From Polynucleobacter alcilacus (GTDB lineage: Bacteria; Pseudomonadota; Gammaproteobacteria; Burkholderiales; Burkholderiaceae): a stretch of 64,000 nucleotides of DNA. A program made the position numbers and the translations under genes. The notes beneath the pieces were generated by a model. It ran no database searches. It was not told the DNA's origin and saw nothing but the letters and a program-made list of their open reading frames with translations. The stretch lies in the NCBI RefSeq assembly GCF_018881545.1, contig NZ_JACVQD010000001.1:1766776-1830775 (forward strand), written 5' to 3'. The first letter of the stretch is position 1; each line of letters opens with the position of its first letter. This document shows, piece by piece, positions 2,449 through 52,035 of this stretch.

Positions 2449-3371
2449 TAGAAGTAACCTTCTTTCTTGCGGCGCTCCATAGAGGCCTCATTGGTTTGAT
2501 CGTCCATGCGGGTTGCGCCGCGTTCGGTGATTTCAGTAATGGCGGTTTCAGCAATGATCTCCATTGGGGTAGCGGCAGTACTAAGTACCGGGCAGGTGCA
2601 GCTAATATCGCCGACAGTACGAAAGCGCACACTGAGGATTTCGCTGAGATCGCCTGGCGCCTTAGGCGTTACATTGGTGACAGGAACCAGGAGGGTATTT
2701 TTCTTCACTACTTCACGTTGGTGGGTGTAGTAAATGCTAGGCAACTCTAATTTCTCGCGAGCAATGTATTGCCAGATATCGAGCTCTGTCCAGTTGGAAA
2801 TGGGGAACACACGCATGTTCTCGCCTTTAGCGATGCGGGCGTTATAGAGATTCCAAAGTTCAGGGCGTTGCGCCTTGGGGTCCCACTGGCCAAACTCATC
2901 ACGGAAGGAAAAAATGCGCTCTTTGGCTCTGGCCTTCTCTTCATCACGGCGTGCGCCACCCATCAGGGCATCGAATTCATATTCAGCAATAGTCTCTAGC
3001 AAAGTAACGGCTTGCGCAGCGTTGCGAGAATCAGTTTCTTTGCGCAAACGCACAGTCCCTTTTTTGATCGAGTCTTCTACGTGGCCGATGATCAGCTTCA
3101 CCCCAGTGTTTTCAACTACTGCATCACGATAGGCAATCACTTCAGGATAGTTATGGCCGGTATCAATATGCAAGATCGGGAAAGGTAATTTGACAGTGCG
3201 ATCGCCAAACTGAAATGCCTTGCGTGCTAAGTGGAACATCACAATAGAGTCTTTACCGCCAGAAAACAGCATGGCAGGATTAGCGCATTGCGCAACGACT
3301 TCACGAATGATGTAGATTGATTCGGCTTCGAGCCAATCTAAATGGTCATCCAGCAATTTTTGTTCATGCAT
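2448..3371 (-). CDS. cysD: Sulfate adenylyltransferase subunit 2 CysD
   Basis: 307 residues, full length. The PP-loop ATP pyrophosphatase motif FSGGKDS is at about residues 36-42, and the typical C-terminal run RMDDQTNEASMERRKKEGYF is complete. The protein binds ATP and sulfate and forms APS together with the GTPase CysN. It lies 46 bases downstream of cysH on the same strand and overlaps cysN by one base. Nothing is unusual in the sequence. Confidence 0.96.
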   Translation of the reverse strand: MHEQKLLDDHLDWLEAESIYIIREVVAQCANPAMLFSGGKDSIVMFHLARKAFQFGDRTVKLPFPILHIDTGHNYPEVIAYRDAVVENTGVKLIIGHVEDSIKKGTVRLRKETDSRNAAQAVTLLETIAEYEFDALMGGARRDEEKARAKERIFSFRDEFGQWDPKAQRPELWNLYNARIAKGENMRVFPISNWTELDIWQYIAREKLELPSIYYTHQREVVKKNTLLVPVTNVTPKAPGDLSEILSVRFRTVGDISCTCPVLSTAATPMEIIAETAITEITERGATRMDDQTNEASMERRKKEGYF

Positions 3372-5242: not shown

Positions 5243-6019
5243 TTACTTTTCAACGAAAGCGCGTTCGAAGACGTAATCGCCTAATTGACCAAGGCTTGGA
5301 GAAACCTTAAAGCCCTTGGTGTCCAGCATCTCGGCGGTCTCTTTCAGCATAGAGGGGCTACCGCAGATCATGGCTCTATCTACTGCTGGATCCAGTGGCG
5401 GCAAGCCAATATCTTTAAAGAGTTGACCAGACTCGATGGCAGTTGTGAGACGACCAGTGTGCTTGAATGCTTCGCGTGTCACCGTTGGGTAATAGATGAG
5501 TTTTTCACGAATGATTTCCCCGATGTATTCATCTTGAGTGAGTTCATTCTTGATGTAATCGCCATAAGCGAGTTCGCTAACCAAACGTACACCATGAATT
5601 AATACGACTTTTTCAAATTTCTCATAAGTGTCTGGGTCGCGAATGATGCTCATAAATGGCGCCAAGCCAGTGCCAGTGCTAAACAGGTAAAGATGCTTTC
5701 CTGGATTTAAGTCATCGATGACTAAAGTACCAACAGACTTCTCACTTACTAAAATGGGATCGCCCACTTGAATTTTCTGCAAACGCGATGTTAGTGGACC
5801 ATCTTGAACCTTAATGCTTAAGAACTCGAGATGTTCTTCATAATTTGGGCTGGCAACACTGTAGGCTCTCACCAAGGGTTTGCCTTCCACCTCAAGGCCA
5901 ATCATTAAGAAGTGACCACTACGAAAGCGCAGGCCCTTATTACGAGTGGTGGTGAAGCTAAAAAGCGTGTCGTTCCAGTGGTGAACGGTGAGAACAGTTT
6001 CGGTGTGATATGCGGCCAT
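5243..6019 (-). CDS. fpr: Ferredoxin/flavodoxin-NADP+ reductase Fpr
   Basis: 258 residues, the length of bacterial subclass I ferredoxin-NADP reductases. It has the FAD-binding RAYSVASPNYEEHLEFL (about residues 50-67), the NADP-binding GTGLAPFMSI (about 115-125), CGSPSMLKE, and the C-terminal YVFERAFVEK characteristic of the Azotobacter/Pseudomonas FPR group. It exchanges electrons between NADPH and ferredoxin or flavodoxin. It lies directly upstream of the cys operon on the same strand, with 122 bases between its stop and the small ORF. It may therefore serve sulfite reduction, oxidative stress, or both. It is divergent from dsbB. Confidence 0.93.
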   Translation of the reverse strand: MAAYHTETVLTVHHWNDTLFSFTTTRNKGLRFRSGHFLMIGLEVEGKPLVRAYSVASPNYEEHLEFLSIKVQDGPLTSRLQKIQVGDPILVSEKSVGTLVIDDLNPGKHLYLFSTGTGLAPFMSIIRDPDTYEKFEKVVLIHGVRLVSELAYGDYIKNELTQDEYIGEIIREKLIYYPTVTREAFKHTGRLTTAIESGQLFKDIGLPPLDPAVDRAMICGSPSMLKETAEMLDTKGFKVSPSLGQLGDYVFERAFVEK

Positions 6020-6118
6020 AAATGCTTGTAAATAACAGATTTCGTTTTTAAGAATCGTTGATTATCCCATTCCTGAAGGCTAATTTCTTGGCAAATGCTC
6101 TATAAATAGGACTAAGTA

Positions 6119-6132
6119 GTGATATACATCAA
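6119..6132. promoter_or_regulatory. FNR/Anr-like box between fpr and dsbB
   Basis: GTGAT-ATAC-ATCAA matches the FNR/CRP-family half sites TTGAT-N4-ATCAA at nine of ten defined positions. It lies in the 171-base divergent region, about 59 bases before the dsbB start and 100 bases before the fpr start. An oxygen- or NO-responsive regulator acting on fpr or dsbB would make sense for redox genes. A single near-consensus match can occur by chance, so confidence is moderate to low. Confidence 0.35.
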
Positions 6133-6190
6133 ATTTTTGGTAATAAGACCAAACCTTTATTGCCATGTGCTGGGGCGCTATGATGTCTAA

Positions 6191-6670
6191 ATGAGCTCAA
6201 CCCGCTATTTATACCTTTCCTTATTCAGTCTTGGCTTAGTTATTTTTGCTGTCATTCTTCAGCAGGTGGGGTACCAAGGAGTAAGTTTCTTGCCTTGCCC
6301 CTTGTGTATTTTGCAAAGAGTAGGTTATCTCGGAATTGCGATTTTCTGCTTTTTGGCGGTTGGCTTTACTCCATTGAGAAAACTATTTCATGGCCTTGCT
6401 ACCTTGTTTGCAGCATACGGCTTATTTGTAGCGGCAAGGCAGGTTTGGCTGCTATCTCATCCAGAAACCTCATGTGGTATCGACCCACTCGAGACTTGGA
6501 TTAATCAGTTTCAGTTGGCGCAGGGATTACCTTGGTTATTTAAAGCAGATGGACTTTGCTCAGCAAAGTTACCAGCTATTTTGGGATTACAAGTTCCCGA
6601 GTGGTCTTTATTCTGGTTTGCAGTACTCTTTCTGATCTTGGCAGTCACTTTCTTCAAAAAGCAAAAGTGA
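6191..6670 (+). CDS. dsbB: Disulfide bond formation protein DsbB
   Basis: 159 residues with four membrane segments. It has the two periplasmic cysteine pairs of DsbB: Cys36/Cys39 in LPCPLCILQR and Cys95/Cys123 in the second loop (SCGIDPLETW, GLCSAK). DsbB re-oxidises periplasmic DsbA and passes electrons to quinone. The ATG at 6191 is preceded by an earlier ATG that hits a stop at once, so this start is secure. It is a single-gene unit ending before two terminator-like hairpins. Confidence 0.93.
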   Translation: MSSTRYLYLSLFSLGLVIFAVILQQVGYQGVSFLPCPLCILQRVGYLGIAIFCFLAVGFTPLRKLFHGLATLFAAYGLFVAARQVWLLSHPETSCGIDPLETWINQFQLAQGLPWLFKADGLCSAKLPAILGLQVPEWSLFWFAVLFLILAVTFFKKQK

Positions 6671-6719
6671 TGTTAGTTGAGTTTGCCCAATGGGTTTGCC
6701 TAATGAGTCAGTCCAATAA

Positions 6720-6741
6720 AAAAGCACCCTAGGGTGCTTTT
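6720..6741. terminator. Bidirectional rho-independent terminator between dsbB and lysS
   Basis: A perfect 22-base palindrome with a GCACCC/GGGTGC core is flanked by A-runs on the left and T-runs on the right. It can end transcription of dsbB on the plus strand and of lysS on the minus strand. Confidence 0.8.
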
Positions 6742-6753
6742 CTTCTGCTTTTT

Positions 6754-6784
6754 GCATCTTCGCATTAATTTGAAGATGCTTTTG
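6754..6784 (+). terminator. Second terminator-like hairpin after dsbB
   Basis: GCATCTTC and GAAGATGC form an 8-bp stem with a 10-base loop, followed by TTTT on the plus strand. It backs up the stronger palindrome just upstream. On the minus strand the trailing sequence is A-rich, so it would act on plus-strand readthrough only. Confidence 0.5.
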
Positions 6785-6792
6785 ATTCTGAA

Positions 6793-8349
6793 TTACTCTT
6801 CTTCACGACGCAGGTGAGGGAACAGAATCACATCACGAATGTTTGGTACGTCTGCGAGGAGCATCACCAAGCGGTCAATACCAATCCCGCAACCACCAGT
6901 CGGAGGCATGCCGTACTCAAGAGCGCGAATGAAGTCGTGGTCAAAGTACATTGCCTCTTCATCGCCCGCTTCTTTTTGTTCTACTTGCTTGCGGAAGCGG
7001 TTAGCCTGATCTTCAGCATCATTTAACTCGGAGAAGCCATTAGCAATTTCACGTCCAGTAATAAATAATTCAAAGCGCTCAGTAATCCCTGGGCGGGTAT
7101 CAGATTCTCTAGCGAGTGGGCTGACTTCAATAGGGTAATCAATGATGTAGGTTGGCTCCCACAGGTGCTCTTCAGCAACCAATTCAAACAAAGCTAACTG
7201 AAGAGCACCAATACCTGCGTTCTTGAGGCTTGGGGAATCTGGATTCTCACCACCCTTTTTCAATTCAGTACGAATGAAATCAATGTCATCCAGTTGGACT
7301 GCTTCATAGCTCTTACCTGATTGACTGCAGTATTTCAGAATCGCTGCAGTAATAGTGAGGCGTTGGAATGGCTTACTCAGATCGAGCTCACGACCTTGGT
7401 GTGTCAATACGGCAGTACCTTGAGCATCCATTGCAGCGGCACGGATCAAGCCTTCCGTAAAATCCATCAGCCAACGGTAATCCGTATAGGCTGCATAGAA
7501 CTCCATCATCGTAAATTCAGGATTGTGACGCGGGCTGACGCCTTCGTTACGGAAGTTGCGGTTGATCTCAAAGACCCGTTCAAAGCCACCTACTACTAAA
7601 CGCTTGAGATACAGTTCTGGCGCAATCCGCAAGAACATTTGCATGTCCAAAGCATTGTGATGGGTGATGAAGGGCTTAGCTGTAGCGCCACCAGGAATCG
7701 GGTGGAGCATGGGTGTTTCGACTTCCATAAAGTCAGCATCGAGCATATGGCGACGTAGCGACGCAATCGCATTGCTACGTGTTTTAAAAGTATTGCGACT
7801 TTCTGGATTCACGATCAAATCGACATAGCGCTGACGATATTTGGTCTCCTGATCTGATAGTCCATGGAACTTATCTGGCAATGGGCGTAGGGACTTACTG
7901 AGTAAACGCAAGTTGCTACATTCAACTGATAACTCGCCTTTATTGGTCTTAAAGAGATTGCCTTCGGCTGAAATGAAGTCCCCCATATCCCAGTGCTTAA
8001 AAGCGCCATGGGTTTCAGCACCACTGAGTTCATCGCTGATATAGAACTGAATTTGACCGCTACGATCCTGAATGGTTGCAAAGCTGGCTTTACCCATGAC
8101 CCGTTTCAGAACCATGCGACCAGCAACTTTCACATGAACTTTCTTAGCCGCAAGTTCTTCTTTGCTGAGGCTATCGTAGTGAGTATGCAGATCTGCTGCT
8201 AAGTGGGTGGGGACAAAATCATTTGGAAAGGCAATGCCACCTTCGCGCAGCTTGGCCAGTTTTTCACGGCGCTCCGCGATGATGTGGTTCTCATCCACTG
8301 CTTCAGTAGCTGGTGCTGGCGTATTGCCTGAGTTGGTTTTATCGTTCAT
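6793..8349 (-). CDS. lysS: Lysyl-tRNA synthetase, class II
   Basis: 518 residues, slightly longer than E. coli LysS (about 505). It has an N-terminal OB-fold anticodon-binding domain (about residues 75-190) and a class II catalytic core. Motif 2 is present ([11 protein letters not shown]), as is motif 3 near the C-terminus ([13 protein letters not shown]). It charges tRNA-Lys, whose gene is at 41962-42037. It starts 12 bases after the prfB stop, an arrangement (prfB-lysS) conserved in many proteobacteria. It ends at a strong terminator. Confidence 0.96.
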
Positions 8350-36947: not shown

Positions 36948-38048
36948 TTATTTAAGGCCAAAAAATGCATTTGCTTCATCAATCATTGAATCGTATTCGT
37001 TCAGGTTGGGCTTATCGGGGCTACCGCCTTCAATAAAGGTGCCCCCAATGACCCCAATATCCTGTGGTGCAGAATCCGGTAAATGCTTAGGGAAAATATA
37101 AAAAGACCGTTTTACTTTTTGATGTGCTTCTGTTTTACCTTCACCAAAGTAAACCAAAATCATGTAGTTCATATTTTCGGGAACTTGATTTTTAAGCATG
37201 ATCAGATGGCCCTGAACGGGAACAAGGGTGGTGTCATTGGCTAATTCAACAGCACCAAGCCCGCTACAGTTAAAAATAAACTGTTGTTCTAGCTGATCAA
37301 ATGAGGTAATTTTCCCGAGGATAATTTTGATGTGATGCGCGTTGATGAATTCATGTAATTCAGCCATGAGTAAGGCCGTATTCATAAAGATACCATCGTC
37401 ATATACCACCATCATGCGGCTGGTACCATTACCAAAATCCAAAATCACTTCTTTGGCTGGATTCATAACCTTACCAACATAGGCCTCCAGCCCAGAATCT
37501 TCTCGACTATTGAAGTAGCTAGGAACTAAGCGAGCCCCTTGCTTGAAGTCATCATTTTTGTTTCTGGCTACACCATCATAAAAGCGATAAGCATCAATCC
37601 CAATTTGATCAATGATGGGCTGCATAGCGTGATCGTTATCCATCGAGACAGGTGCCAATAAGCCGCCAGCATAGTGAGAGGCTAAGCAGTCTATTTTTTC
37701 AGCATAGATAGTGATATTGCTATAGCCTCGTTTAACTAAATCATAGGCAGTAAATAGTCCGACTAAGCCGGCTCCAATAATGGCAATGGGAGTAGATTGA
37801 TCGGATAACTCTTTTGCAAGTGGTGAATCAATTAATAATGAATTGACATACTTGGTAGATCCTGGTCCAAGGGTCCAGCCACCGCCACCATGACCATAAT
37901 TATGTGCAATCACTTTGCTATTTTTTTGCTCAATACTTAGGTTTGGCATGCCGTGCTTCATGGGGCGATAGCATAGAATTTTCTCACCCAGATTTGCCTG
38001 CTCAAATACTGGTGGAATAATGTTTCTGACTTCGGTCGGTTCGGTCAT
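36948..38048 (-). CDS. FAD-dependent D-amino-acid-oxidase-like protein with permuted domain order
   Basis: 366 residues. The Rossmann FAD motif (IAIIGAGLVGLFTAYDL, Gly92-Gly97) comes unusually late. Before it, residues 25-64 carry CYRPM...HNYGHGGGGWTLGPG, which in D-amino-acid oxidases is the C-terminal segment with the substrate-binding Arg (here Arg28) and the GHGGxG FAD helix. The middle follows DAO order: ASHYAGGLLAP, FNCSGLGA (about 259-266), PVQGHLIML (277-285), and IGVIGGTFIEGG (331-342). The chain then stops just where the RPxR segment would normally follow. It probably oxidises a D-amino acid or related amine in the cytoplasm. The permutation is read from motif order. Confidence 0.85.
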   Translation of the reverse strand: MTEPTEVRNIIPPVFEQANLGEKILCYRPMKHGMPNLSIEQKNSKVIAHNYGHGGGGWTLGPGSTKYVNSLLIDSPLAKELSDQSTPIAIIGAGLVGLFTAYDLVKRGYSNITIYAEKIDCLASHYAGGLLAPVSMDNDHAMQPIIDQIGIDAYRFYDGVARNKNDDFKQGARLVPSYFNSREDSGLEAYVGKVMNPAKEVILDFGNGTSRMMVVYDDGIFMNTALLMAELHEFINAHHIKIILGKITSFDQLEQQFIFNCSGLGAVELANDTTLVPVQGHLIMLKNQVPENMNYMILVYFGEGKTEAHQKVKRSFYIFPKHLPDSAPQDIGVIGGTFIEGGSPDKPNLNEYDSMIDEANAFFGLK

Positions 38049-38089: not shown

Positions 38090-38965
38090 ATGATCTTATT
38101 ATTGAATGACATCGCTATGACGGTGTCTCTTCAAGGCTGCAAAAGCATTATGCCTTCTCAGCTTTACGTATATCTGCTATATTTCTTAAAGCCCATGTTC
38201 ACTATTCCATTCACTCTCCTACTAGTTCTGGCAACATTTCTTGCTGGCGCGCTGATTATATTTTTCCTAGTTCAAAAATACCTTTCATTTTTAACTATTG
38301 AAGACACTAGTCACGCGACGATTTTTTCATTTGCTATAGGAACTGTTTTTGGACTGACCTTAGCATTTATTACTGTATCGACCTGGCAGAACTACAACCG
38401 CCTCAATTCAATAGTGATGCAGGAGGCTACAAATCTGACTACCATCTATAGATCCTTAGATGCTTTTCAGCCCGCACTCAGAGATCAAGGCACTCAACTA
38501 ATAACAAGTTATGTTGAGAAAGTCATTACAAAAGAATGGCCGCTGATGGCTAAAAGCCAATTTAACGATCAATACTTCGCTGATTTTCATCAATTCCAGT
38601 TATTGATGCTGCGTCATAATCCTGCGAATAACGCCGAGTTAATTGCCCAGCAGGAGGAGCTGAGGTTGATATCTGAATACTATAAGCTCCGTATAGAACG
38701 AATCACTACCTCAAAAGCAGCTTTAGATTATTCGATGACTCTGACTTTGTGCTTGGGTGCATTTATCTTTATTTTGTATCATTCTTTATATGCGATGCCT
38801 AAACGGCGAGATCATATACTGATGATCTCATTGCTGGCAATCTCGCTAGGCTTGATTTATTTTCTTATAGTGTGCCACAACACTCCATTCTCTGGTCCCA
38901 ATGCTATTCAACCAGATGAGTTAAACAGAATCCTAGAATTATGGAAGATCGATTCACTAAAGTAA
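38090..38965 (+). CDS. DUF4239-type (bestrophin-like) membrane protein
   Basis: Up to 291 residues. Two hydrophobic helices lie near residues 40-65 and 76-100, and two near 215-235 and 243-262. A soluble region between them (about 105-205) holds charged helices (EATNLTTIYRSLDAFQPALRD). This four-helix pattern is typical of DUF4239 proteins, which are annotated as bestrophin-like and may be anion channels; function is unproven. The start is uncertain: ATGs at 38090, 38150 (MPSQLYVYL) and 38195 (MFTIPFTLLL) are all possible. The gene is divergent from the FAD oxidase. Confidence 0.72.
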   Translation: MILLLNDIAMTVSLQGCKSIMPSQLYVYLLYFLKPMFTIPFTLLLVLATFLAGALIIFFLVQKYLSFLTIEDTSHATIFSFAIGTVFGLTLAFITVSTWQNYNRLNSIVMQEATNLTTIYRSLDAFQPALRDQGTQLITSYVEKVITKEWPLMAKSQFNDQYFADFHQFQLLMLRHNPANNAELIAQQEELRLISEYYKLRIERITTSKAALDYSMTLTLCLGAFIFILYHSLYAMPKRRDHILMISLLAISLGLIYFLIVCHNTPFSGPNAIQPDELNRILELWKIDSLK

Positions 38966-50312: not shown

Positions 50313-51497
50313 ATGCTAAAACTTGATAACCACCTATCTGGACGCCATTTCTTACATATTCCCGGCCCAAGTCCGGTTCCTTCTCGCATTTTGCGTGCTA
50401 TTAGTTATCAAACTATTGACCACCGTGGTCCTGAGTTTGGTGAGTTTGGCTTGAAGGTCTTAGATGGCATTCAAAAGATTTTTAAGACCAAGCATCCGGT
50501 CATCATTTATTCCGCCTCGGGCACGGGTTCATGGGAAGGCGCCTTAGTCAACGTGCTCAATCCTGGTGACAAAGTGCTTTTTTACGAGACTGGTCAATTT
50601 GCGAACTTATGGTGGGCGCTTGCAGACAAAATTGGTTTACAGGCTGAGGTGATTGGTAAGGCTGGTAAAGATACTTGGCGTTGGGGTGTTGACGCTTCAG
50701 TCATTGAAGAGCGCTTGCGTAAGGATACCCAACACGAAATTAAAGCAGTGTGCGTAGTGCATAACGAAACCTCGACTGGTATGACCTCTGATATCGCTGC
50801 CGTTCGTAAGGCAATGGATGCAGCAAAGCATCCAGCGCTACTTTTGGTGGACAGTGTGTCTGGCTTGGGTTCAGCAGACTATCGCCATGATGAGTGGGGT
50901 GTTGATGTCACGGTTTCAGGATCGCAAAAAGGCTTGATGTTGCCACCGGGGATTGGCTTTAATGCACTCTCACCAAAAGCAATTGAAGCTAGCAAGCACA
51001 GCAAGATTCCTAAAGCGTATTTAGCTTGGGATGAAATTCTGGAAGCGAATAAAACGGGTTACTGGCCAACTACACCCAGTACCAATTTAATGTATGGTTT
51101 GCACGAAGCAATAGACATGATGATGGCTGAAGGATTGGATACGATTTTTGCTCGTCACCAACGTTTGGCGGAAGCGTGTCGTCGCGCAGTAACAGCCTGG
51201 GGTCTTGAGAATCAGTGCCAAGATGCCACTGCGTATTCTCCAGTCTTAACTGCTGCAGTAGTTCCAGATGGAATGGATGCGGATGTCTTGCGCAAACATG
51301 CTTTACAGAAGTTCAACCTCTCACTGGGAACTGGACTTGGTAAGCTCAAAGGTAAGATCTTCCGTATCGGCCATTTGGGTGAATGCAATGAGTTGAGCTT
51401 GATGGCAGCGCTCAGTGGGACTGAAATGAGTCTGGGAGCAATGGGCTACAAACCCAAAGAAAGCGGTGTTGTTGCAGCCCAAGAGTTCTTGAAGTAA
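50313..51497 (+). CDS. sgaA: Serine-glyoxylate-type aminotransferase, class V
   Basis: 394 residues from the ATG at 50313 (MLKLDNHLSGRHF). An open frame back to 50214 lacks a ribosome site and would cover the operator. The N-terminal HIPGPSPVP and the PLP lysine in VSGSQKGLMLPPG (about residue 200) place it in the alanine/serine-glyoxylate aminotransferase group. It would convert glyoxylate plus an amino acid such as serine into glycine and a keto acid. The FCD regulator and the hydroxyacid dehydrogenase beside it suggest a C2/C3 acid pathway. Confidence 0.87.
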   Translation: MLKLDNHLSGRHFLHIPGPSPVPSRILRAISYQTIDHRGPEFGEFGLKVLDGIQKIFKTKHPVIIYSASGTGSWEGALVNVLNPGDKVLFYETGQFANLWWALADKIGLQAEVIGKAGKDTWRWGVDASVIEERLRKDTQHEIKAVCVVHNETSTGMTSDIAAVRKAMDAAKHPALLLVDSVSGLGSADYRHDEWGVDVTVSGSQKGLMLPPGIGFNALSPKAIEASKHSKIPKAYLAWDEILEANKTGYWPTTPSTNLMYGLHEAIDMMMAEGLDTIFARHQRLAEACRRAVTAWGLENQCQDATAYSPVLTAAVVPDGMDADVLRKHALQKFNLSLGTGLGKLKGKIFRIGHLGECNELSLMAALSGTEMSLGAMGYKPKESGVVAAQEFLK

Positions 51498-51527
51498 TCA
51501 GAAAACGGCATTCAGGGTGGGGTGGAG

Positions 51528-51539
51528 TAGGGATCCCTA
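51528..51539. promoter_or_regulatory. Palindrome upstream of the GlcG-like gene
   Basis: TAGGGATCCCTA is a perfect 12-base palindrome, nested between GGGGTG (51519-51524 area) and CACCCC (51555-51560), which can also pair. A TATAAT at 51562-51567 may be the -10 of the downstream gene. It could be an operator or part of a terminator of the aminotransferase gene, though no T-run follows. Confidence 0.35.
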
Positions 51540-51627
51540 GGGTTATCCAGGCTACACCCCTTATAATTCAGGTACTTATAGAATTGCATTAACTAGATAC
51601 ACCCCATTCGAAACGGAAAGAAAAAAC

Positions 51628-52035
51628 ATGTTCGCTACTAAACCGTATTTAACTCAGGTTGATGTTCAAAAGATTTTGGATGCAGCCAACAAGCATGCTA
51701 CTGAAAATAATTTCGCAGTGACCATTGCTGTATGTGATGACGGCGGTCATTTGTTGGGTTTAATTCGTCGTGATGGTTGTGCGCCCTTATCGGCCTATAT
51801 TGCAGAAGAGAAGGCACGTACGGCTGCAATGGGTATGCGCGAAACACGTATTTACGAAGAAATTATTAATGACGGTCGCCATGCTTTCTTATCTGCCCCG
51901 CATGTTTCGGGCATGTTAGAAGGTGGCGTCAATATCGTGGTAAATGGACTTACCATCGGCGCAGTCGGCGTTTCCGGCGTTAAATCGGCGGAGGATGCTG
52001 AAACTGCGAAGGCCGGCATCAAAGCCATTCTGTAA
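51628..52035 (+). CDS. GlcG/HbpS-family protein
   Basis: 135 residues, one small alpha/beta GlcG (DUF336) domain with VAVCDDGGHLLG-type core (here ITIAVCDDGGHLLGL spanned at about 33-46), LIRRDGCAPLSAYIAEEKARTA and the glycine-rich GVNIVVNGLTIGAVGVSG near the end. Members occur in glycolate and other acid-utilisation operons and can bind haem or cobalamin-like ligands. Exact role is unknown. Its position after a glyoxylate aminotransferase fits the glc connection. No signal peptide. Confidence 0.83.
   Translation: MFATKPYLTQVDVQKILDAANKHATENNFAVTIAVCDDGGHLLGLIRRDGCAPLSAYIAEEKARTAAMGMRETRIYEEIINDGRHAFLSAPHVSGMLEGGVNIVVNGLTIGAVGVSGVKSAEDAETAKAGIKAIL

Follow-up and report, generated by a model that had tools for sequence, protein, structure and literature searches.

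Evidence for a naturally occurring, circularly permuted member of the D-amino acid oxidase family, a probable FAD-dependent amino-acid oxidase or dehydrogenase, in Polynucleobacter alcilacus

Flavoproteins of the glutathione-reductase type are recognised by a Rossmann motif at the N-terminus, and D-amino acid oxidase (DAO) is a textbook member. The canonical order of segments is also general in the remainder of the DAO superfamily. The gene described here comes from Polynucleobacter alcilacus and lies in a window of 64,000 nucleotides, by which the whole stretch of DNA analysed is meant. Both halves of its product are homologous to pig and human DAO (DAAO; PDB 1dao, 2du8, and 4qfd), with equivalents of the FAD motif, Arg283, Tyr228, and Gly313 and a core that superposes with a Z of 18.4. 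In contrast to DAAO, the C-terminal segment comes first in the window protein, identity in the structural alignment is about 22%, and a DAAO-like activity would be a prediction from the sequence. Human D-aspartate oxidase (DASPO; PDB 6rkf) is the top single-sequence PDB match for both the window protein and a relative from Nonomuraea, but the order of segments is swapped in the window protein. The canonical DAO-like proteins of bacteria and archaea (from Burkholderia glumae, Mycobacterium lentiflavum, Vibrio coralliilyticus, Streptomyces plasmids, and others) are homologous to it over most of the length after rotation, whereas theirs is the order with the Rossmann motif first and the GHGG segment last (10 of 10) and they form a separate branch. 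The model for glycine oxidase ThiO (TIGR02352) matches the Rossmann part of the window protein with 55.4 bits, against a cut-off of 250.8, and its best stretch covers residues 88-136 only.

No description of a permuted DAO or D-aspartate oxidase, including among permuted flavoproteins, was found in the literature searched, where subscription journals were thinly covered; an earlier note, made from this DNA alone, had likewise known of none. Specifically, the words 'oxidase', 'flavin', and 'FAD' are absent from the available main text of CIRPIN, a search for circular permutants (PMC12667903), and 'permut' is absent from the accessible part of a report on a search for new DAAOs (PMC9844085).

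The window gene is an uninterrupted ATG open reading frame (ORF) of 366 codons, and its features are the following:

36948..38048, minus strand: ORF of 366 amino acids, probable circularly permuted DAO-family FAD oxidoreductase (ORF; Pfam PF01266, 83.4 bits)
37797..38048, minus strand: residues 1-84, probable relocated segment and linker (profile stretch, i-E 2.5e-9; rotation scan)
37857..37976, minus strand: residues 25-64, RPM ... HNYGHGGGGWTLGPG, equivalent of the DAO carboxylate-arginine and GHGG segment (sequence; pig DAO alignment)
37965..37967, minus strand: codon of Arg28, equivalent of DAO Arg283 (alignment; 44 of 44 permuted, 10 of 10 canonical sequences)
37791..37829, minus strand: residues 74-86, linker from the old C-terminus to the old N-terminus (DSSP of the model)
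37758..37775, minus strand: residues 92-97, Rossmann FAD motif GAGLVG, N-terminal in canonical DAOs (sequence; PF01266)
37098..37100, minus strand: codon of Tyr317, equivalent of DAO Tyr228 (alignment; Tyr in 31 of 44 permuted sequences)
37023..37055, minus strand: residues 332-342, GVIGGTFIEGG, near the new C-terminus (sequence; model alignment)

The earlier note had proposed a DAO-like flavoprotein of permuted order, with the RPM and GHGG segment ahead of the Rossmann motif, both parts in one frame with neither duplicated, and GVIGGTFIEGG close to the end of the chain. All of these elements lie where it had placed them, on the minus strand, which it had left unstated. The RPM motif is R28-P29-M30, H49-NYGHGGGGWTLG reads HNYGHGGGG over residues 49-57, and GHGG occurs once in the protein, with no second copy after the Rossmann motif. 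The own genome contains one copy of the gene, beside three further PF01266 proteins. Its dN/dS (NG86) is 0.055, 0.044, and 0.062 against the relatives L003, L004, and L006, and 0.061-0.108 for residues 1-84 alone against the same three; synonymous sites were saturated overall for L009, L020, and L010. These values indicate strong purifying selection on the gene as a whole, with each of the two segments also being constrained.

Sequence comparison places the two segments of the window protein on DAO in exchanged positions. PF01266 was matched with 83.4 bits, above its cut-off of 27.9, and the best stretch ran from residue 88 to 363 over positions 2-297 of a profile of 353. The NCBIfam models matching at E<=1 numbered 38, and the best 25 all scored below their own cut-offs. 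A phmmer search of PDB sequences with the single protein gave human D-aspartate oxidase as top match (whole-sequence E 1.1e-7), with residues 85-135 on 12-64, 257-286 on 187-216, and 15-64 on 275-326 of that chain; individually these stretches are weak (i-E 5.5, 0.19, and 35, respectively). The Nonomuraea relative gave the same swapped pattern on the same chain with better scores (E 2.9e-22), its residues 84-127 matching 14-59, 205-321 matching 141-255, and 15-75 matching 269-336, the last with an i-E of 6.1e-6. With a profile of ten relatives (A2) compared with pig DAO, each stretch was significant by itself: positions 90-359 matched 2-260 (i-E 3.5e-19) and positions 15-75, corresponding to about residues 12-72 of the window protein and representing the relocated segment, matched 267-330 (i-E 2.5e-9). 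No permuted chain was found among PDB sequences; the 17 profile matches at E<=1e-6 were all D-amino acid or D-aspartate oxidases, in each of which the main stretch opens the chain.

The junction was located by rotation. A family profile of 17 sequences (A3) was rotated at every tenth residue of the window protein, giving 37 cuts, and compared by hhalign with a profile from ten canonical DAO-like proteins (A4). In native order the score was 300.3, over canonical columns 7-280. A single peak of 439.5 stood at the cut at residue 80, where columns 7-344 of 371 were aligned, flanked by 435.8 at residue 70 and 430.0 at residue 90, so that moving the N-terminal segment to the C-terminus, as the earlier note had suggested, raised the score by about 140. 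Additionally, in 398 genomes of the phylum the canonical profile A4 matched as two swapped pieces, its C-terminal part upstream of its N-terminal part, in nine genomes (G520, G656, G736, G747, G553, G573, G600, G675, and G792). In G520, for example, canonical positions 266-322 lie at G520:C5:50655-50825 and are followed by positions 5-263 at 50829-51635. The swapped profile alignments, the maximum of the rotation scan at the expected junction, the split matches of A4, and the order in relatives all support the proposed circular permutation. We assign a probability of roughly 0.77 to the reading that the window gene encodes a natural circular permutant of the DAO/D-aspartate oxidase family that would oxidise a D-amino acid or a close analogue with FAD. 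The window protein has the homology to this family over both segments but lacks its canonical order, and we describe the permuted proteins as a sister branch of the DAO family with permuted order, not as canonical DAOs.

The predicted structure shows the DAO fold of FAD and substrate domains over residues ~79-366. AlphaFold2 (AF2) was run with 11 aligned sequences; its best model had a pLDDT of 80.2 and a pTM of 0.85, while the other four models were poor (mean pLDDT 52.8 to 37.4). By VIA-align, residues 86-366 of the best model superpose on residues 1-271 of human DAAO (4qfd_A; Z 18.4, rmsd 2.8 A, 245 aligned), residue 366 being the last aligned and equivalent to DAAO 271, and residues 79-366 superpose on 1-266 of human DASPO (6rkf_A; Z 18.3, rmsd 3.0, 251 aligned). 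Among the matches listed, no linear alignment of the model starts before residue 74. The part that is covered, about residues 79-366, is just what a linear aligner can reach if residues 1-85 are permuted. A second AF2 model, of the 57%-identical relative L010, was weaker (pLDDT 62.1, pTM 0.70; on DASPO Z 10.9, rmsd 3.8, 212 aligned). In the N-terminal segment of the window protein, strands are predicted at residues 20-31, 36-42, and 45-51 and a helix at 57-73; this order of three strands and a helix presumably fits the C-terminal segment of DAO. The linker (residues 74-86) spans the distance from the end of this helix to the first Rossmann strand and contains a short predicted helix at 76-82. 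We infer from the sequence that residues 1-85 occupy the site of the C-terminal segment in DAO.

Residues of the DAO active site can be traced in the permuted protein, with DAO numbers counted on the printed pig DAO alignment. Arg28, which the earlier note had taken for the substrate-carboxylate arginine, aligns with the Arg of GFRP (Arg283) and is invariant in all 44 permuted and all 10 canonical sequences. Gly55 aligns with the last Gly of GHGG (Gly313) and is conserved in 44 of 44 permuted sequences. Tyr317 aligns with the Tyr of SPYIIP (Tyr228); it is kept in the window protein and in 31 of the 44 but replaced in the other 13, which indicates that the substrate pocket varies. For Tyr224 of DAO no obvious counterpart was seen in the pig DAO alignment. 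In DAO, we take Arg283 and Tyr228 to bind the carboxylate and Gly313 to lie at the flavin, and the same roles are presumed for Arg28, Tyr317, and Gly55. The conserved Arg, Gly, and Tyr support the retention of carboxylate binding and flavin contact, and hence suggest amino-acid oxidation. Most likely, the permuted enzyme works like a DAO; the activity, the substrate, and the electron acceptor are predictions. The old C-terminal segment, consisting of strands and the GHGG helix and carrying the substrate-carboxylate arginine, now stands at the N-terminus, joined through a linker of ~13 residues to the old N-terminal FAD-binding strand, and the new end of the chain falls where the arginine segment would have started. 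The folded enzyme would be expected to rebuild the FAD site and the active site with Arg28, Tyr317, and Gly55, and may convert a D-amino acid or close analogue to the imino acid with transfer of a hydride to FAD.

The permuted order is conserved among relatives, a point that the earlier note had marked for checking. A motif scan was run over 53 homologous loci with no filter for order, and in 51 of them a GHGG-type segment was found only before the Rossmann motif, at a distance of 34-43 residues; most loci had been collected with permuted queries, a bias towards permuted relatives. GHGG after the Rossmann motif, or on both sides of it, was found in 0 of the 51, so that the second C-terminal GHGG segment which, according to the earlier note, would have spoken against a permutation did not appear there. 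The other two loci have no Rossmann match to the scan pattern and appear permuted by eye: the protein of L146 contains HNYGHGG and then AILGGGVMAL, and a short frame of L048 contains HNYGHGG and then IAVLGAGVMG before it breaks. In contrast, the ten canonical comparators (L091-L100), which were picked from tblastn matches and are not an even sample of canonical DAOs, have the Rossmann motif first and GHGG last in every case. Identity of the relatives to the window protein ranges from 92% down to 21-27%, and they include one actinomycete (Nonomuraea) and rhizobial plasmids. In one locus (L159, G826:C62:4000-9000), the full permuted gene has upstream of it a second partial copy (2864-3136, minus strand) with the signal and the Arg/GHGG segment, 65% identical, which represents a partial tandem duplication. 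In L048 of Mesorhizobium pOM4 (5914-6977) and in L148/L149 of G925, the permuted gene is divided between two frames or two annotated CDSs, through either sequencing error or decay.

Within the genus, full-length relatives are present in 13 of 151 genomes, the own one included. Matches at E<=0.001 extend to 18 genomes; of the additional five, two have remnants and three match over the Rossmann region. The remnants, at 1984-2186 of L160 (G062) and 1710-1793 of L161 (G026), are partial and both from Polynucleobacter, which points to loss of the gene within the genus. A second short fragment of a permuted gene occurs in G126 (G126:C90:7151-7273). Among 300 genomes of the order, the own genome and two clear relatives (G252 and G427) were found, and of the 32 genomes matched at E<=0.001 the remainder were weak, mostly over the Rossmann region. 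The phylum sample yielded 20 of 398 genomes at E<=1e-15, including the own, and all 20 (L051-L070) are among the 51 loci above. The family of G712 had the gene in 29 of 119 genomes and that of G553 in 6 of 100, one of these broken into two frames. When the phylum was scanned with A4, 21 genomes matched. In 19 of them, the own one among these, the match fell on the permuted gene, in G600 on a ThiO-like protein as well, and in G784 and G742 on ThiO-like proteins alone; G581, one of the 20 permuted matches above, fell below the threshold with A4. No DAO of canonical order was seen in this 398-genome sample, for which only five candidates per genome were scored. Likewise, phage records gave no relative by tblastn at E<=1e-5, and viral contigs gave none in a pattern scan with the single protein.

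Whether the order changed once was approached by maximum likelihood, with a tree that combined 44 permuted sequences, rotated beforehand, with 10 canonical ones and had no outgroup. For this tree 46 permuted loci had been offered, and L070 and L146 were dropped for want of a motif match. A single branch parts the permuted from the canonical sequences (support 99/95) and is present in 98% of 200 bootstrap trees. With two ThiO-like proteins as outgroup (TIGR02352, 241 and 233 bits, slightly short of the 250.8 required), the root was placed on the window's clade with its long branch. The permuted set was then not one clade and two changes were needed, in a tree for which the program warned of long-branch joining. 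Overall, the trees are compatible with a single permutation event for the whole permuted set, of which the rooting gives no proof. The canonical order is taken as ancestral because it is common to the sampled ThiO-like proteins and the rest of the superfamily.

Many relatives carry candidate export signals. A Tat-like RRxhh motif was matched in the open frame before the GHGG segment in 33 of the 51 loci, 21 of these with a lipobox-like Cys, by a crude pattern on stop-to-stop frames that may give some false matches in GC-rich frames. The starts SRRSFLKTSAAG (L020), SRREWLKLAG (L024), and DRRDFLSSVA (L023) look convincing, and L010 has by eye a hydrophobic, Sec-like stretch at the N-terminus. 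The window protein and the relatives nearest to it (L012-L019 and L004) showed no Tat-like motif in frame. The permuted family was therefore probably exported ancestrally, judging from the Tat-like and Sec-like N-termini; the protein of the window's clade is probably cytoplasmic, and given the missing motif the loss of export there is the simplest reading. Asaia is a relative of Kozakia, one of the genera with the permuted gene. A 'D-amino acid oxidase' (A0A060QKK3) is listed among the Asaia bogorensis proteins identified, with no predicted secretion, in the available part of PMC12502724.

The neighbourhoods of the permuted gene vary by lineage, and that of the window gene, consisting of a glutathione S-transferase gene and a Bestrophin-like gene, gives no pointer to D-amino acids. 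The Bestrophin-like gene (PF14023) adjoins it at 38090-38965, and similar genes stand, perhaps by chance, a few kb from relatives in G048 and G126 (L151 13327-14112; L155 3542-4330). In Polynucleobacter G048, the run around the permuted gene includes genes for an aspartate dehydrogenase (399 bits against 253), a CnbZ-type deaminase (324 against 220), an RraA-like protein, a TctC receptor, and an M20 peptidase. Genes for aspartate dehydrogenase, an RraA-like protein, and TctC are also near the permuted gene in G050, and by sequence likeness judged by eye G126 has the same run and G124 part of it; in L008, on the same contig as that of G126, one C-terminal fragment of aspartate dehydrogenase was scanned with profiles. 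Aspartate dehydrogenase is near four Polynucleobacter relatives, and a search of the window's own genome, run without a positive control, gave no match to it. Four sphingomonad-like genomes have an AAA_2 ATPase gene next to the permuted one (L073 4960-8050, L074 4854-8241, L072 6036-8547, L076 5696-8292), and in two of the four a proteasome-type gene (PF00227) lies on the other side, as we would expect for hslU and hslV.

Two explanations that would remove the permutation itself can be weighed against this evidence. The GHGG-like segment at the N-terminus might be a chance or convergent motif and not the relocated DAO C-terminus, to which the i-E of 35 for this stretch in the single-sequence search and its deduced position in three dimensions would lend some colour. 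The same stretch alone, however, reaches 2.5e-9 with a profile, the gain on rotation is about 140 with its maximum at the expected cut, the C-terminal part of the canonical profile matches the segment in relatives, and there is no other GHGG in the 51 loci. A chance motif is very improbable and was rejected on profile significance, rotation gain, and the single GHGG. Similarly, an assembly error or a decaying gene might have given a false order, and decayed remnants in two Polynucleobacter genomes and the split frames in Mesorhizobium pOM4 and G925 would speak for this. Against this, the same order recurs in independent genomes down to ~21-27% identity, and the window ORF is intact and under purifying selection with a low dN/dS, so that an artefact or pseudogene has a negligible likelihood and was also rejected.

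More plausible, though still unlikely, is a true permutation in an enzyme other than a D-amino acid oxidase: a dehydrogenase with cytochrome c or something else as its electron acceptor, or an oxidase acting on different amino compounds. In Kozakia, a gene for a c-type cytochrome comes next after the permuted gene, and the same run includes serine hydrolases and a DadA-like gene (361 bits, below the model cut-off of 383). On Rhizobium and Bradyrhizobium plasmids, a gene for an FAD-binding oxidoreductase precedes and one for a thiamine-pyrophosphate (ThDP) enzyme follows the permuted gene, and the ThDP gene is downstream in Mesorhizobium pOM4 and Nonomuraea as well, so that the permuted gene comes before a ThDP gene on three rhizobial plasmids and in Nonomuraea. 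The Rhizobium pair consists of a berberine-type oxidase and a ThDP enzyme resembling decarboxylases, the latter below cut-offs among the matches listed. In L049 (4470-8696) and L050 (4357-8684), both from rhizobial plasmids, the FAD-binding (berberine-type in L049), permuted DAO, and ThDP genes are consecutive, and this row is possibly a small biosynthetic cluster. The loss of the Tyr228 equivalent in 13 of 44 relatives would also speak for this reading. Nevertheless, the equivalents of Arg283 and Gly313 are invariant, the window protein retains Tyr317, and among solved structures those of D-aspartate and D-amino acid oxidases come closest in sequence. The cytochrome, ThDP, and aspartate dehydrogenase contexts fit amino or imino acid chemistry without fixing it, and none of them is beside the window gene.

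In conclusion, the window gene is best read as a circularly permuted member of the DAO family, and this permuted family is apparently broad in bacteria and undescribed in the literature searched. A wider scenario can be offered tentatively, and we hold it to be rather doubtful: one ancient permutation would have founded a distinct, mostly exported DAO branch, commoner than canonical DAO in Pseudomonadota, that oxidises D-amino acids in the envelope, feeds a c-type cytochrome in some lineages, and was re-targeted to the cytoplasm in the Polynucleobacter clade of the window. A natural and widespread permutant indicates that such a chain can open at another point without loss of the conserved active-site residues, and permuted DAO is a testable case for the rise and maintenance of circular permutation. 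It is also a warning that with linear profiles, as with PF01266 and its match confined to residues 88-363, and with linear structure aligners, no more than about three quarters of such a protein comes into view. Moreover, a mostly exported DAO-like enzyme in alphaproteobacteria and freshwater betaproteobacteria would bear on the turnover of D-amino acids in the environment.
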